A DNA stretch of 35,184 bases, from assembly GCA_001783065.1 (NCBI GenBank), contig MFQN01000014.1, positions 1 to 35,184 on the forward strand, given 5' to 3'. Each line of letters opens with the position of its first letter. Position 1 is the first letter of the stretch. Source of the stretch: Candidatus Magasanikbacteria bacterium RIFCSPLOWO2_12_FULL_43_12. GTDB taxonomy: Bacteria > Patescibacteriota > Patescibacteriia > Magasanikbacterales > UBA922. A program made the position numbers and the translations under genes. Shown here in pieces: positions 21,183 through 26,519 of this stretch. Under the pieces are notes generated by a model, which saw only the letters and a list, made by a program, of their open reading frames with translations, searched no databases and was not told the DNA's origin.

Positions 21183-22922
21183 TTAATTAATGATTTTTAA
21201 CATATACGTCCCTTCTTTTCTATATCCCAACTTTCTGTAGTAACTTCTGACCCCAACTCCGGCAATCACCGCGAGTTTTTTAAATTTATTTTTCTTCGCG
21301 ATCTTTTCCGCTTCTTGAACCAGTTTTTTCCCCAGACCAGTGTGCTGGATTTCTCCATGTTTTAATGTTTTAATGTTTTTATGTTTTAATGCTACCAGTT
21401 GGCCATAGGTGTGGAGTTCGCGGATGAAGGCCAAGTTTGCGATTTTCGGAATCAGAGAGTACGTACTGTCATTGCGAGGAGTCCGCAGACGACGAAGCAA
21501 TCCACTTTCGTTGACTGTTGACGACTGGATTGCTTCGCTGTGGCTCGCAATGACAGACAAACGCAGACGGCAAAACGCAAAAACTACCTGGCGTTTTTTA
21601 TCTTCATAACTTAAAAAGTATTCCATTCCGCCCGTGGTCTCGTATTTCTCCACAAACAATTTCGGTGATGTGGTGATGTAGTGATGTGGTGATGTAGTGA
21701 TGTGCCCAACTTCTCGACAGCGCAAACATTCGCACTTCAATCCGCGCTTCGCCATCTCCGCTTGCAAGACCTGCCGTAGATTAGTTTCTTTGTTTCCAGC
21801 TTGAATGTCTGTGGCTGGTATGTCGCGAATCAAGCGAGAGATACGACAATAGCGCGGCGTTGCAACCTTCATTTGGATTAATGCTTCTAACAGTTTTTTG
21901 TCCGAATACGGTTTATACTTGCCTTTTTTGTACCAATTATATAATTCCGCGCTTTTAACAACAGAACATGGATAAATTTTAACCATATCTGGCTTTAATC
22001 CCGGGTCAGAAAAAATTTGTTTGTACATTTCCACATCATGGTTGGGAGTTGTTCCGGGCAAATTCGGCATAAAGTGCAGGTCAACTTTAAATCCTGCCTG
22101 CCGCAATAAATACATCGCGTCTTTAAATTGTTGAACCGTGTGTCCGCGTTTGGTTAGTTTTAAAATTTTATCATCCGGCGCCTGCAAACCCAATTCAACT
22201 CTTGTACAACCCATTTGGCGCATGTGATAGATGGTTTTAGGTGTGATGAGATCGGGACGAGTTTCCAATGTTAAGCCGATTATTCTGTGTCGTGTTGTTT
22301 CATTGCGTTCCTGCTCATTCTCAAGCGTGTTTTTTAGATATTGAATATTAGATATTGAATATTGTTTGTATCTTGTGTCTTGTTTCTTATTTTTCATTTT
22401 ATTACAAGCTTTAAATGATTCCAACACAAACCAATACTGGTACGCCAACGAATAAGCATTCCAACTTCCACCCTTGACAATAAATTCAATCTTATCCGTT
22501 GGATGGCCGTTTTGTTCCAGCATTTCAATCCGCCGACGCATTTGTTCGTACGGGTCAAAGTTTAGGCCAAAGGCGCGGGCAGCCGCAGGTTCGTTCCGCA
22601 GATAGCTTTTTGGCATTTTGGCTTCAGACGGACAATACACGCATTTACCAGGGCAAGGGAATGGCTTGGTAAGTGAAGTAACGATTGCCACGCCGGAAAG
22701 GGTGCGGATATCAGCCTTGCGCATTAATTTTTCCAGCGGTTTATTTGATTTGATTCTTTTCTTTTTTATTAAATTCTGATAAGCTGATAATAACCGGTGA
22801 TTGGGTGGCTGGTTGATTTTCAACTTATTGCAGGCTATTCTCCGCGCGTTATCAAACTCGGCCTTGAGTAGAGGCTTTCTAGATATAATTTCCAAAATTA
22901 TTTTTTCGTTTATATCACTCAT
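21183..22922 (-). CDS. Elp3-family radical SAM/acetyltransferase (tRNA wobble-uridine modification) with four repeat insertions
   Basis: Elp3 adds a carboxymethyl-type group to U34 of tRNA using SAM radical chemistry and acetyl-CoA. The radical SAM cysteines are C90, C94 and C97 (PCPGKCVYC), followed by NEPAAARAF, FIVKGGSWNAY, LTLETRPDLI and ELGLQAPDDKIL. The acetyltransferase domain is at the C-terminus, with HTGLGKKLVQEAEKIA and GVRSYYRKLGYRKEGTYM. Four repeat insertions are in frame: a ccaatat repeat (22336-22390), a gtgatgtag repeat (21664-21704, peptide HITTSPHHYITTSP), a palindromic element (21466-21556) and an aatgttt repeat (21357-21391). All core motifs survive, so the enzyme is probably functional. 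Its ATG directly abuts the ATG of the divergent methyltransferase. Confidence 0.9.
   Translation of the reverse strand: MSDINEKIILEIISRKPLLKAEFDNARRIACNKLKINQPPNHRLLSAYQNLIKKKRIKSNKPLEKLMRKADIRTLSGVAIVTSLTKPFPCPGKCVYCPSEAKMPKSYLRNEPAAARAFGLNFDPYEQMRRRIEMLEQNGHPTDKIEFIVKGGSWNAYSLAYQYWFVLESFKACNKMKNKKQDTRYKQYSISNIQYLKNTLENEQERNETTRHRIIGLTLETRPDLITPKTIYHMRQMGCTRVELGLQAPDDKILKLTKRGHTVQQFKDAMYLLRQAGFKVDLHFMPNLPGTTPNHDVEMYKQIFSDPGLKPDMVKIYPCSVVKSAELYNWYKKGKYKPYSDKKLLEALIQMKVATPRYCRISRLIRDIPATDIQAGNKETNLRQVLQAEMAKRGLKCECLRCREVGHITTSPHHYITTSPKLFVEKYETTGGMEYFLSYEDKKRQVVFAFCRLRLSVIASHSEAIQSSTVNESGLLRRLRTPRNDSTYSLIPKIANLAFIRELHTYGQLVALKHKNIKTLKHGEIQHTGLGKKLVQEAEKIAKKNKFKKLAVIAGVGVRSYYRKLGYRKEGTYMLKIIN
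21357..21391. repeat. Tandem taatgttt repeat inside elp3
   Basis: Four copies of atgttttaatgtttt words, encoding ALKHKNIKTLKHGEI in the acetyltransferase domain just before HTGLGKKL. Confidence 0.65.
21466..21556. repeat. Palindromic element inside elp3 (long form)
   Basis: Outer arms CTGTCATTGCGA (21466-21477) and TCGCAATGACAG (21545-21556) are exact complements; inner arms cgacgaagcaatcca / tggattgcttcg pair too. It is read in frame as VIASHSEAIQSS through LLRRLRTPRNDS. Confidence 0.85.
21664..21704. repeat. Tandem gtgatgtagtgatgtg repeat inside elp3
   Basis: About four copies of gtgatgtg/gtgatgta, read in frame as HITTSPHHYITTSP. The same word family lies between genes at 24555-24643. 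Confidence 0.75.
22336..22390. repeat. Tandem ccaatat-type repeat inside elp3
   Basis: Minus-strand reading gives NKKQDTRYKQYSISNIQ, nearly the leuS insertion peptide, between SFKACNKMK and the LTLETRPD core motif. Confidence 0.8.
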
Positions 22923-23633
22923 ATGAACCCAAAAGATTTAATAAAACAAAATCGCCTCGCTTACAACATTATCGCTGATGAGTTTTTGTTAAAACGCCAG
23001 TATCGGCTTGATGAGTTGCGCTTTTCAGAACAATATCTTGACGACGGCGACAAGATTCTTGACCTCGGTTGCGGGTGGGGGAGATTGTATCAGGTGTTTG
23101 CCCACAGGTCAATGGATTACACGGGTGCCGATCAAAGCATTGAACCTCTAAAAATCGCGCGTAAAAAATTTCCTAAAATAAAATTCGTCAGAGCGGAGAT
23201 GACAAAATTGCCTTTCAAAAAAAACGAATTTGATAAAATTTTTTGTATTAATACTTTCCATCATCTTTTATCCGGAGATTTGATGTTGGAAGCGTTGCGG
23301 GAGATGAAAAGAGTTTTAAAGCGGGGAGGACAACTGATAATGACAAATTGGAACTTAAGAGGAAATTGGCGCGAGAAAAAAGTTGAGTCTAAAGAATATA
23401 AAGACATCGGAAATAATAACTATGAAATTCCATGGAAGAATGATCTTGGAAAAGTGTTGGTTAAAAGATATTATCATGCTTTTTCTCCTTTGGAATTGAA
23501 GAAACTTTTGAATCAGGCCGGTTTTAAAGTTGAAAAACAGTATTATGAAAGATGGGGGAATAGAAAGAAGTGGGGGAAGAGGAGTAATAAAAAAGATGGG
23601 GCGAATATTGTGAGCGTAGCTACATTCCCGTGA
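22923..23633 (+). CDS. Trm9/ALKBH8-like tRNA methyltransferase, probable
   Basis: 236-residue class I SAM methyltransferase. Motif I is ILDLGCGWGRLY (about 44-55), then GADQSIEPLKIARKKF, MTKLPFKKNEFDKIFCINTF, HHLLSGDLMLEALREM and RVLKRGGQLIMTNWN. The C-terminal part EIPWKNDLGKVLVKRYYHAF followed by SPLELKKLLNQAGF resembles Trm9-type enzymes that methylate carboxymethyl-uridine at tRNA position 34. Its start directly abuts the elp3 start on the other strand, which strengthens the link. TATAAT at 22884-22889, inside elp3, could be its -10 box. A generic methyltransferase-11 assignment is the fallback. The 3' end overlaps the convergent PLP gene by 14 bases. Confidence 0.65.
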   Translation: MNPKDLIKQNRLAYNIIADEFLLKRQYRLDELRFSEQYLDDGDKILDLGCGWGRLYQVFAHRSMDYTGADQSIEPLKIARKKFPKIKFVRAEMTKLPFKKNEFDKIFCINTFHHLLSGDLMLEALREMKRVLKRGGQLIMTNWNLRGNWREKKVESKEYKDIGNNNYEIPWKNDLGKVLVKRYYHAFSPLELKKLLNQAGFKVEKQYYERWGNRKKWGKRSNKKDGANIVSVATFP

Positions 23634-24546
23634 CCAAACATACCACCGGCCCGTTCCACTGCCAGCCGGCGAGGGCGGCTTTTTTGAGGCCGGCGATAGA
23701 GAGCGCGCTGTTGGTGGAAATAGCGAGTTTGCAGGTTTCTTTGACTAAATTCATTGCTTCCATAATTTGTTTATCATCTATAATCCACCCGGACCCGCCG
23801 CTGGTTTTTATTATTTCAACCACTTTTTCTTTCCGCATTGCGACGCGGTCTACGATGGCAGAGGCGAGCGAGCGAACCACCTCTCCGCCCCTTGGGGACA
23901 CCTCCCCTTCGTAAGGGGAGGACAAGACGAATGCTTCGGCAATGGGATGACAGGTATTTGTTTGGATAATATGAATTTGCGGACGATTTTTTAGTTTTAA
24001 ATAATTGTCGGTCCAGAATGCTTCAGCCAAACCTTGCGCGGTCGTGCCGGAAGAAGTAGGGACGAAAATCGCGGCAAGGTTTGGGATTTTATCTAATTCT
24101 TCGGCCAATTCAAAATAGCCCAAAAGCGCGTTGTCGTCGGTTGATTGGCGCAGAATTTTTGTGGCGCTATCTTTGTCTATTTGGAACGCGGATTGTTTTG
24201 GCTTCTCCACCTGTTCAATTTTAATATTCGCGTCTTCAACTGTCAGCAAAAGAAGTTTTAATTTTTTTGGGTCAATGTTTTTGCCGACAAAAACCGTGAG
24301 CTTGATTTTGCTCGGATTGTTGCGGTTATGCGCTTGCGCGGCGTGAATAGCCGCTAACGCCGCGTTGCCAGAAGAAGAAATGACGAAGTCGGTTTTGCCG
24401 TCTTCTTTGAAGTATTTTTTTATCATCAGCGGTATTGACCGTCCTTTGTGCGAGCCATATTTATGCTGATCCTCGCGTTTGAGGTAAACATCTTTTACCC
24501 CGAGCGCCCGGGCCAGTTCGCCATACGGCATTTGGATTGTCTTCAT
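23620..24546 (-). CDS. PLP-dependent fold-type II enzyme (threonine synthase/dehydratase-like)
   Basis: 308 residues. The PLP lysine is expected at K34 in KYGSHKGRS, with the phosphate-contacting SSSGNAALA motif, FVPTSSGTTAQGL as the glycine-rich loop, and VCLVTGM at the end. This places it in the tryptophan-synthase-beta superfamily near threonine synthase, cysteine synthase and serine/threonine dehydratase; the exact substrate is open. The chain is shorter than usual threonine synthases and no other amino-acid genes surround it. The peptide LSSPYEGEVSPRGGEVV comes from a CCTCCCCTT/AAGGGGAGG element inserted in frame (23879-23925). ATG 24546 is preferred to the GTG nine bases upstream. Confidence 0.75.
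   Translation of the reverse strand: MKTIQMPYGELARALGVKDVYLKREDQHKYGSHKGRSIPLMIKKYFKEDGKTDFVISSSGNAALAAIHAAQAHNRNNPSKIKLTVFVGKNIDPKKLKLLLLTVEDANIKIEQVEKPKQSAFQIDKDSATKILRQSTDDNALLGYFELAEELDKIPNLAAIFVPTSSGTTAQGLAEAFWTDNYLKLKNRPQIHIIQTNTCHPIAEAFVLSSPYEGEVSPRGGEVVRSLASAIVDRVAMRKEKVVEIIKTSGGSGWIIDDKQIMEAMNLVKETCKLAISTNSALSIAGLKKAALAGWQWNGPVVCLVTGM
23879..23925. repeat. CCTCCCC/GGGGAGG hairpin element inside the PLP enzyme gene
   Basis: CCTCCCCTT (23901-23909), loop cgt, AAGGGGAGG (23913-23921). Encodes SSPYEGEVSPRGGEVV on the minus strand, close to the peptide in the NlpC/P60-type gene. Confidence 0.8.
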
Positions 24547-24554
24547 ATGTTTCA

Positions 24555-24643
24555 CTTAATCACTGGATCACTACATCACATCATCACTTGGCGATTCGGC
24601 GATTCGGTGATGAGGTGATGGTGTCATCAAGTGATGCAGTGAG
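24555..24643. repeat. gtgatg/catcac repeat region, intergenic
   Basis: Tandem atcacta/catcacttgg and gcgattcg words, then ggtgatgaggtgatgg. CATCACTTG (24582-24590) and CAAGTGATG (24628-24636) can pair. It lies between the PLP gene and the promoter of the LysW-like gene. Confidence 0.6.
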
Positions 24644-24968: not shown

Positions 24969-26519
24969 TAACACTTCTATCATTCCTCTAAAGCCGTGAC
25001 TGCCAAGGAAAACCACAACATCACCCACCTTTGCTTCTTTATTGATCAAGTCAACTAGTTTTTCATCATCAGAAATATATTTAACATTCGGATGCGTTTG
25101 GCTGATTATCTTCATCAAGTCCTCGCCCTCAAGTGGTGGGGATTTTTTTGGATCGTGTTTGATGCTGGTTAATTCCGGAATTATGACTAAATCAGCCGCG
25201 TTGAATTTATTATCATAACTTGGTATCGCTTCCGGCTGTCGGTTGCCGGTGTTTGGCTCAAAGATGGCGATTATTCTCCTGTCATTGTGAGGAGGAGCCG
25301 CGCGATCCCTCGTCTCCACTCGGGACAGGCTCCGCAATCCAGTGTCGTTGAGCAACCGGATTGCTTCGCTGTGGTTCGCAATGACAGATGCTAATGTATT
25401 TAATGTTGACTCTGCTTTCGCCGGCGAGTGCGCGATATCGTCAAAAATCGTAATCTCGCCTTCAAATCTCTTTTCTAATCTTCTCTTTAATCCTTTAAAT
25501 TCACCAATGGCTTTAATAATCGTTTCCGGATCAATACCAATCTCACACGCCATCGCGAACGCGCCGCAGATATTTTCGGCCATGTAATCGCCGAAGACGT
25601 AGGACTTAAGATGTAGGACGGAGGAATTATACGAGATGTCAAATTCCACACCGTCTTTTGTAGTTTTAACATCGGAATATTTATAATCGGATTTTTCCGA
25701 CTTTCCGTATGTCTTAATCGTCGGTTTGTTCCATGTTCCATGTTTCATGTTACATGATACACTTTCGTTTGCCACAACCAACCCCGTCTCAGGCACAGAC
25801 TTTACTAACTCATCAAACACTCTAAAATACGCCTCTTCCGTCGGATACACATCCGCATGGTCCCATTCCACCGCGGTTAAGAGCAGATGAGTGGGGGAAT
25901 AGTGCGCGAATTTCGGTCTGTCATCCCAGCGCGAACTTTTGTATTCATCACCTTCAAGCACCGACCAATCGCCACTGTCATTGCGAGGAGTCAGTAGACG
26001 ACGAAGCAATCTATCGATGTTATTCTGGATTGCTTCGTCACTCGTTCCTCGTTCCTCGCAATGACAGAAAGCAGACGGAAAATCCCCGTCAATTGCCAAT
26101 CCGCCAAACATATAACTCAGTTCCATTCCTGCTTTATACAATATCCAGCTCAACAGCGCAGCAGTACTAGTCTTCCCATAAGTCCCGGCGCAAACAATGG
26201 AATTTTTTCTGACAATATATTCCGCGATTAGTTCTGGATAAGATTTGTATTCAAGTTTTTGTTCTTGCGTGTAGAGCCACTCGGGGTTATTGGAGCTTGC
26301 CACATTACCTACCACAACTAAATCCGGTTTGCCATTTTTACACATTAAATCAGGATGCCAGCCGGTATAGTAATCAACTTTATTTTTTTTAAGATAATCA
26401 GAAATCGGCGGATAAATACCAACGTCACTCCCTGTAACCCGCCAGCCTGCTTTTTTAAATGCCAAAGCCAGCCCGCTCATCGCGACCCCACAGATGCCGA
26501 TGAAGTGAATGTGTCTCAT
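24945..26519 (-). CDS. mpl: Mur ligase of the Mpl/MurC type with two palindromic insertions
   Basis: Ligase joining UDP-MurNAc to an alanine-containing peptide. The layout favours Mpl (muropeptide recycling ligase) over MurC: MRHIHFIGICGVAMSGLA at the start, ATP loop CAGTYGKTSTAAL, then VLEGDEYKSSRWDDRPKFAH and the VEWDHADVYPTEEAY stretch typical of Mpl. A late IFDDIAHSPAKAE is also present. It is 524 residues long, more than the usual 450-460. The excess includes two palindromic insertions (25975-26067, peptide FCHCEERGTSDEAIQ onward; and 25279-25387, peptide SVIANHSEAIRLLN onward) and several smaller repeats. Its ATG overlaps the stop of the upstream arginyl-transferase-like gene by 4 bases (ATGA). 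No separate murC is seen, so it might do both jobs. Confidence 0.85.
   Translation of the reverse strand: MRHIHFIGICGVAMSGLALAFKKAGWRVTGSDVGIYPPISDYLKKNKVDYYTGWHPDLMCKNGKPDLVVVGNVASSNNPEWLYTQEQKLEYKSYPELIAEYIVRKNSIVCAGTYGKTSTAALLSWILYKAGMELSYMFGGLAIDGDFPSAFCHCEERGTSDEAIQNNIDRLLRRLLTPRNDSGDWSVLEGDEYKSSRWDDRPKFAHYSPTHLLLTAVEWDHADVYPTEEAYFRVFDELVKSVPETGLVVANESVSCNMKHGTWNKPTIKTYGKSEKSDYKYSDVKTTKDGVEFDISYNSSVLHLKSYVFGDYMAENICGAFAMACEIGIDPETIIKAIGEFKGLKRRLEKRFEGEITIFDDIAHSPAKAESTLNTLASVIANHSEAIRLLNDTGLRSLSRVETRDRAAPPHNDRRIIAIFEPNTGNRQPEAIPSYDNKFNAADLVIIPELTSIKHDPKKSPPLEGEDLMKIISQTHPNVKYISDDEKLVDLINKEAKVGDVVVFLGSHGFRGMIEVLVSKFISK
25279..25387. repeat. Palindromic element inside mpl, copy 1
   Basis: Ends CTGTCATTGTGA (25279-25290) and TCGCAATGACAG (25376-25387), with inner words ggattgcttcgctgtggt. 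Read in frame as SVIANHSEAIRLLN and RAAPPHNDR, between SPAKAESTLNT and IIAIFEP. Confidence 0.85.
25599..25624. repeat. Tandem gtaggactt repeat inside mpl
   Basis: acgtaggacttaagatgtagg, encoding SSVLHLKSYVF on the minus strand. The same word family occurs at 26711-26733 and 26961-26990. Confidence 0.55.
25728..25760. repeat. Tandem ttccatg repeat inside mpl
   Basis: Four copies of gttccatgtttcatg words, encoding SVSCNMKHGTWNKP on the minus strand. Confidence 0.6.
25975..26067. repeat. Palindromic element inside mpl, copy 2
   Basis: Ends CTGTCATTGCGA (25975-25986) and TCGCAATGACAG (26056-26067). Read in frame as FCHCEERGTSDEAIQ and LLRRLLTPRNDS, just before the DWSVLEGDEY motif. Confidence 0.85.

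Follow-up and report, generated by a model that had tools for sequence, protein, structure and literature searches.

The closest described systems act on the wobble uridine (U34) of tRNAs. In eukaryotes, these are Elongator (Elp1-6) and the methyltransferase Trm9; the Trm9 holoenzyme of eukaryotes and haloarchaea includes the activator Trm112, which eukaryotic Trm9 needs. To our knowledge, Elongator subunits other than Elp3 are reported absent from bacteria. Archaea such as Haloferax and Sulfolobus have Elp3 without the other Elongator subunits (PMC2584109, PMC7663514). Archaeal homologues of Elp3 and Trm9 were noted in 2008, with elp3 and trm9 clustered in Sulfolobus solfataricus (PMC2584109), and Haloferax volcanii is reported to contain mcm5U (PMC7663514).

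The bacterial enzymes for U34 are MnmE/MnmG, which generate cmnm5U34, and MnmA. Unmodified U34 in tRNA-Lys/Gln/Glu was reported to be non-viable in Salmonella (PMC5400242). In a 2020 review, bacterial Elp3 is described for a single clade, Dehalococcoides, with a shortened N terminus and no known derivative (PMC7663514). A catalogue from the same year lists mcm5U for Archaea and Eukarya only (PMC7694415). According to a 2017 review, bacterial genes similar to Trm112-dependent methyltransferases were not found (PMC5372719). In the open-access literature, to which the search was confined, we came across no description of an Elp3-Trm9 pair in bacteria.

The locus described here, from a patescibacterium of the order Magasanikbacterales, can be compared with each of these systems. 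It is like eukaryotic Elongator plus Trm9-Trm112 in the catalytic residues of Elp3, the catalytic and tRNA-binding residues of Trm9, and the same two predicted steps, but this order is without recognizable Trm112, the two genes form a divergent pair, and the one thiolation enzyme that was looked for and found is MnmA. Like the archaeal systems, it would rely on Elp3 without other Elongator subunits; unlike them, it is bacterial, Trm112-free, and tightly divergent, whereas a haloarchaeal genome tested has Trm112. At the haloarchaeal loci examined, no elp3 was found within ∼4 kb of the homologue. With bacterial MnmE/MnmG plus MnmA, it shares the wobble position, presumably the same tRNAs, and MnmA, but MnmG and MnmE are absent and the carbon donor differs, being acetyl-CoA for Elp3 versus glycine and methylene-THF for MnmE/MnmG. 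Its Elp3 is, like that of Dehalococcoides mccartyi, a lone bacterial Elp3 with the same fold and motifs, but it is extended by helices at its N terminus and is accompanied by a Trm9-like partner. Judging from sequence, we consider it likely, with good confidence, that the pair is a two-gene bacterial mcm5U34 pathway, consisting of Elp3 and a Trm9-like enzyme, with MnmA as the probable thiolation enzyme, standing in for MnmEG.

A divergent pair of genes with abutting start codons

The window, i.e. the whole stretch of DNA that was analyzed (35,184 nucleotides), comes from a genome (G000) of 1.05 Mb in 34 contigs, which is 99.6% complete. The genes around the pair (Table 1) are ordinary bacterial genes, encoding TsaE, serine hydroxymethyltransferase, and Mpl/MurC-like and MraY-like proteins. 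A PLP-dependent threonine-synthase-like gene (23620-24555), which contains a repeat-like segment (SSPYEGEVSPRGGEVVRS), overlaps the methyltransferase gene tail-to-tail by 14 bp.

Table 1. Features of the elp3-methyltransferase locus (positions are those of the window)
Feature	Position	Strand	Description
elp3	21183..22922	minus	579-aa ORF, ATG start; radical SAM + KAT enzyme, predicted cm5U34 maker
Trm9-like class I methyltransferase	22923..23633	plus	236-aa ORF, ATG start; predicted to convert cm5U34 to mcm5U34
Abutting divergent start codons CAT/ATG	22920..22925	.	Read from sequence
Palindromic repeat insert, in frame, elp3 KAT region	21440..21565	minus	∼aa 455-493; repeat pair 21468/21544

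The earlier note on this DNA stated that the two genes start exactly back to back, and the ORF coordinates are indeed exact, with zero bases between the two ATG codons. Across 46 loci of the order, the two starts lie a median of 6 bp apart, with 33 loci at ≤15 bp, as compared with a median gap of 188 bp among the 67 divergent pairs that a crude gene call gave for the source genome. Chance is excluded as an explanation for the tight divergent spacing of the pair. With only 0-15 bp between the starts at most of the order's loci, the promoter and leader of each gene must lie inside the opposite gene. A σ70 scan of the shared start region detected sites no more numerous than in shuffles.

On sequence grounds, the minus-strand gene is beyond doubt Elp3. 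It scores 529 bits against the NCBIfam profile TIGR01211 (ELP3), for which the cut-off is 350, and its best PDB relatives are archaeal Elp3 entries (∼1e-117), along with solved bacterial and yeast Elp3 chains; matches to Min and Dmc Elp3 go down to 1e-117. The cysteines of the radical SAM [4Fe-4S] cluster are in place (C90/C94/C97), and E220/K315/Y317 align with E207/K302/Y304 in Elp3 of Methanocaldococcus infernus (Min), with the same 95-residue spacing. With these Min residues mutated, cm5U formation is lost or severely impaired (PMC13315578). The acetyl-CoA motif of the KAT domain (Q526-H-T-G-L-G and YYRKLGY 561) is found despite the insert, and Q526, G529, and G531 are invariant among relatives.

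The neighboring methyltransferase is predicted to be Trm9-like

The plus-strand gene (METHYLTRANSFERASE) encodes a class I methyltransferase to which Pfam and NCBIfam give generic names only, so its likeness to Trm9 needed separate testing. These two databases alone were rejected as a functional assignment, since generic methyltransferase names cannot assign function. A family profile built from 41 orthologues was searched against all PDB sequences. The top match was Yarrowia Trm9 (YlTrm9, 5cm2_Z), with 7.8e-31 over 195 residues, which is nearly full length. The second-best match (2.1e-25) covers only the SAM-binding core, and among the three PDB alignments listed, YlTrm9 alone gives full-length coverage. 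Searched back against the source genome, YlTrm9 retrieves the methyltransferase gene first (1.3e-9), with the runner-up at 0.017. The AlphaFold2 model of the methyltransferase has a mean pLDDT of 94; when it was used in Foldseek, 5cm2_Z ranked ninth by E-value, with a target-normalized TM score of 0.81 that is the highest among the matches listed.

In yeast Trm9 (ScTrm9), mutation of R29, H115, R241, Y243, and N271 cuts tRNA binding and activity (PMC5372719). All five residues are present in the methyltransferase, as R25, H114, R182, Y184, and N228 (the yeast-to-Yarrowia register being set by motif), accompanied by W143, P170, and W171. The C-terminal PWK...KRYYHAF segment on which the earlier note had based its Trm9-like assignment reads P170-W171-K172...K181-R182-Y183-Y184-H185-A186-F187. 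The five-residue set is kept in most Patescibacteria, other bacteria, and archaea, with Y184 the most variable position. As a set, it is missing from 11 generic methyltransferases and from Escherichia coli CmoA and CmoB. Against the family profile, Trm9-like rows score 91-222 bits, generic methyltransferases 52-78, CmoM 33, CmoA 22, and CmoB 17. The predicted reaction, methyl-esterification of a carboxyl on the U34 side chain, is like that of CmoM in the cmo5U34 pathway, but identity with CmoA, CmoB, or CmoM was rejected because of scores of only 17-33 bits and, for CmoA and CmoB, because the Trm9 residue set is missing. Profile, functional residues, and relative profile scores thus all support a Trm9-like enzyme, as proposed, rather than CmoA/CmoB/CmoM.

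It is unlikely, but still the best of the alternatives, that Elp3 makes cm5U while its partner methylates another group or position (e.g. a carbamoyl-type derivative, or the 2′-O), so that the end product is not mcm5U. Class I methyltransferases change substrate easily, and some relatives have V, C, H, I, or L at Y184. Against this, R25, H114, R182, and N228 are near-universally kept, residues whose yeast counterparts have been linked to binding the tRNA and orienting its cm5U34, and the same two activities are paired in archaeal and eukaryotic relatives.

Phylogeny is less clear-cut. Yeast Trm9, the one eukaryotic sequence sampled and a long branch, falls inside the bacterial rows of the methyltransferase tree and the archaeal homologues form their own clade, with deep branches poorly supported. 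The tree sets the methyltransferase of the pair with yeast Trm9 and close to the archaeal rows. Constraining the Trm9-like rows to one clade, apart from generic methyltransferases, gives AU p = 0.51, which neither rejects such a clade nor demonstrates it. The placement outside the tRNA-modifying group that would have spoken against the original proposal was not seen, but the weak branch and this AU value leave a Trm9 clade unproven. A Paceibacter methyltransferase (L110, 3887-4657) groups with yeast Trm9 but is without an equivalent of R182; no Elp3 lies within its 8.6-kb locus.

The pair is conserved in Patescibacteria and beyond

Among 86 genomes of the order, the methyltransferase occurs in 75 and Elp3 in 77; both are found together in 74 genomes, and the two genes form a divergent pair within 600 bp in 71. 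In one orthologue (G081, L022 1072-2199), the ORF runs to 375 aa because of a long extension at the C terminus, which may reflect a fusion or an assembly error. Of 380 Patescibacteria genomes drawn evenly, 140 contain Elp3, of which 108 also carry the methyltransferase, and a divergent and adjacent pair occurs in 88 genomes spread over 41 families. No convergent or tandem arrangement at ≤600 bp was found in these 380 genomes. Co-occurrence of the two genes is strong (Fisher p = 2e-58, kinship ignored), and only five of the 380 genomes have the methyltransferase without Elp3, all of them weak matches. Because the converse is seen in 32 of the 140 Elp3-bearing genomes, clustered in few families, Elp3 can act alone. 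The foremost such family (f40) accounts for 12 genomes with Elp3 from which the Trm9-like methyltransferase is absent (G103, G122, G140, G155, G196, G209, G240, G300, G348, G364, G395, and G404); in these, cm5U may be the end product, or a different enzyme may complete the modification.

Divergent pairs also came to light elsewhere when named genomes were scanned: at least five in Chloroflexota (L130, L147, L152, L153, L159), others in at least one deltaproteobacterial metagenome-assembled genome (MAG) (L146), in Fermentibacterota (L160), and in Dojkabacteria (L139, L144), and pairs with a wider gap in at least two archaeal MAGs (L124, L126). Counts outside Patescibacteria proper are minimum values and may be affected by errors in MAG binning. 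An Ignavibacteriales locus (L096) was left out as support, since it may be a binning error: it nests with CPR in the tree, sits on a 17-kb contig, and comes from a genome with MnmG. Conservation of the adjacency extends through the order and the phylum and past its limits; confinement to a single genome, which would have counted against the earlier proposal, was not observed. That proposal had also been framed as a two-enzyme pathway of a reduced bacterium. The pathway reading is supported, and the pair has a wider distribution than that framing, since it is also present in large-genome Chloroflexota.

Such conservation bears on whether the neighbor could be a generic, unrelated methyltransferase, its adjacency being mere inherited gene order. 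The generic Pfam/NCBIfam matches and the weak tree support for a Trm9-like clade would fit this idea, but it is made very improbable by an adjacency kept in 41 families and outside the phylum, and by the rarity of the gene in genomes without Elp3 (5/380, all weak matches). A Trm9-like partner of Elp3 is the reading we retain.

Elp3 carries an in-frame repeat insert

The elp3 insert, which falls within the KAT region, belongs to a palindromic repeat found in the window at 21468-21554, 25977-26065, and 7092, from which an 11-mer (GTCATTGCGAG/CTCGCAATGAC) has ∼107 copies in the genome. It lies in frame inside both elp3 and a MurC/Mpl-like gene, encoding peptides such as SHSEAIQ...LLRRLRTPRNDS. 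In the AlphaFold2 model of Elp3, very low confidence is confined to residues 460-483 (pLDDT <50, within the insert) and 510-526, the latter near the acetyl-CoA blocking loop.

The insert and the low pLDDT around it could be signs that this genome is losing the pathway, with Elp3 disabled by repeats and the pair residual. We give this little credence, since the elp3 frame is open over 579 codons with intact catalytic motifs, the low pLDDT is limited to these two stretches, and in a relative from the same genus, elp3 is interrupted at the corresponding position by a similar in-frame-sized insert. Scarcely credible is an MnmL/MnmM-like (YtqA/YtqB) system with cmnm5U from MnmEG as its substrate: MnmL is likewise an Elp3-like radical SAM protein and the second NCBIfam match of Elp3, but this reading is contradicted by the profile scores (79 bits for MnmL against a cut-off of 180, versus 529 against 350 for ELP3), by the KAT domain present in Elp3, and by the missing MnmG and MnmE, which leaves such a system no cmnm5U substrate.

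Genomic context and proposed pathway

Profile searches of the source genome yielded no MnmG or MnmE over cut-off, only GTPase-domain matches. MnmG was found in 6 of the 380 Patescibacteria genomes, none of which is Elp3-positive; ∼60% of the sample has neither MnmG nor Elp3. The methyltransferase family occurs in 13 other bacterial genomes, 11 of which are without MnmG, the two exceptions being L096, with its possible binning error, and L107, in which no Elp3 was seen on a short contig. The source genome does have MnmA (372 bits) and a full set of U34 tRNA genes (Lys UUU, Glu UUC, Gln UUG, Arg UCU, and Gly UCC), and A-ending codons predominate in the boxes of these tRNAs.

Trm112 (PF03966) gives no match above its cut-off in any of the order's 86 genomes, and none whatever in the source genome, although the model is short (40 positions) and a very divergent activator of this type could therefore be missed. 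It is present in most Chloroflexota genomes tested that have the methyltransferase family and in both euryarchaeal genomes tested. A TRM112-like partner or a competing MnmE/MnmG, which it had been suggested to look for, is thus not seen here: MnmG and MnmE are missing and no Trm112 is recognizable.

From these data and from the established chemistry of Elp3 and Trm9, we infer a set of reactions, their order, the tRNAs concerned, and Trm112-free action. Elp3 alone, without Elp1/2/4/5/6, would use SAM radical chemistry and acetyl-CoA to carboxymethylate the wobble uridine at C5 (cm5U34), presumably in tRNAs reading NNA/NNG codons of split boxes. The Trm9-like neighbor would then methyl-esterify the cm5U34 carboxyl in a SAM-dependent manner, giving mcm5U34; that it would do so without Trm112 follows from the absence of the latter. 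The resident MnmA would probably 2-thiolate tRNA-Lys, -Glu, and -Gln, yielding mcm5s2U34. Since MnmG is nearly absent, the Elp3/Trm9-like pathway would substitute for the missing MnmE/MnmG.

Implications

On balance, we lean toward a broader view in which a Trm112-independent mcm5(s2)U34 pathway (Elp3, Trm9-like methyltransferase, and MnmA) is widespread in bacteria, above all in Patescibacteria and Chloroflexota, where it would replace MnmEG. MnmG is missing from nearly all sampled Patescibacteria, and the literature searched held no answer as to how U34 is modified there; the pair offers a testable one for more than a quarter of the sampled species. For enzymology, it would provide a Trm9 that is small and may work without Trm112, along with an Elp3 that stands alone. 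The occurrence of mcm5U would extend to bacteria from the Archaea and Eukarya to which it has been assigned (PMC7694415) and, if this is true, mcm5U would be a modification of all three domains of life.
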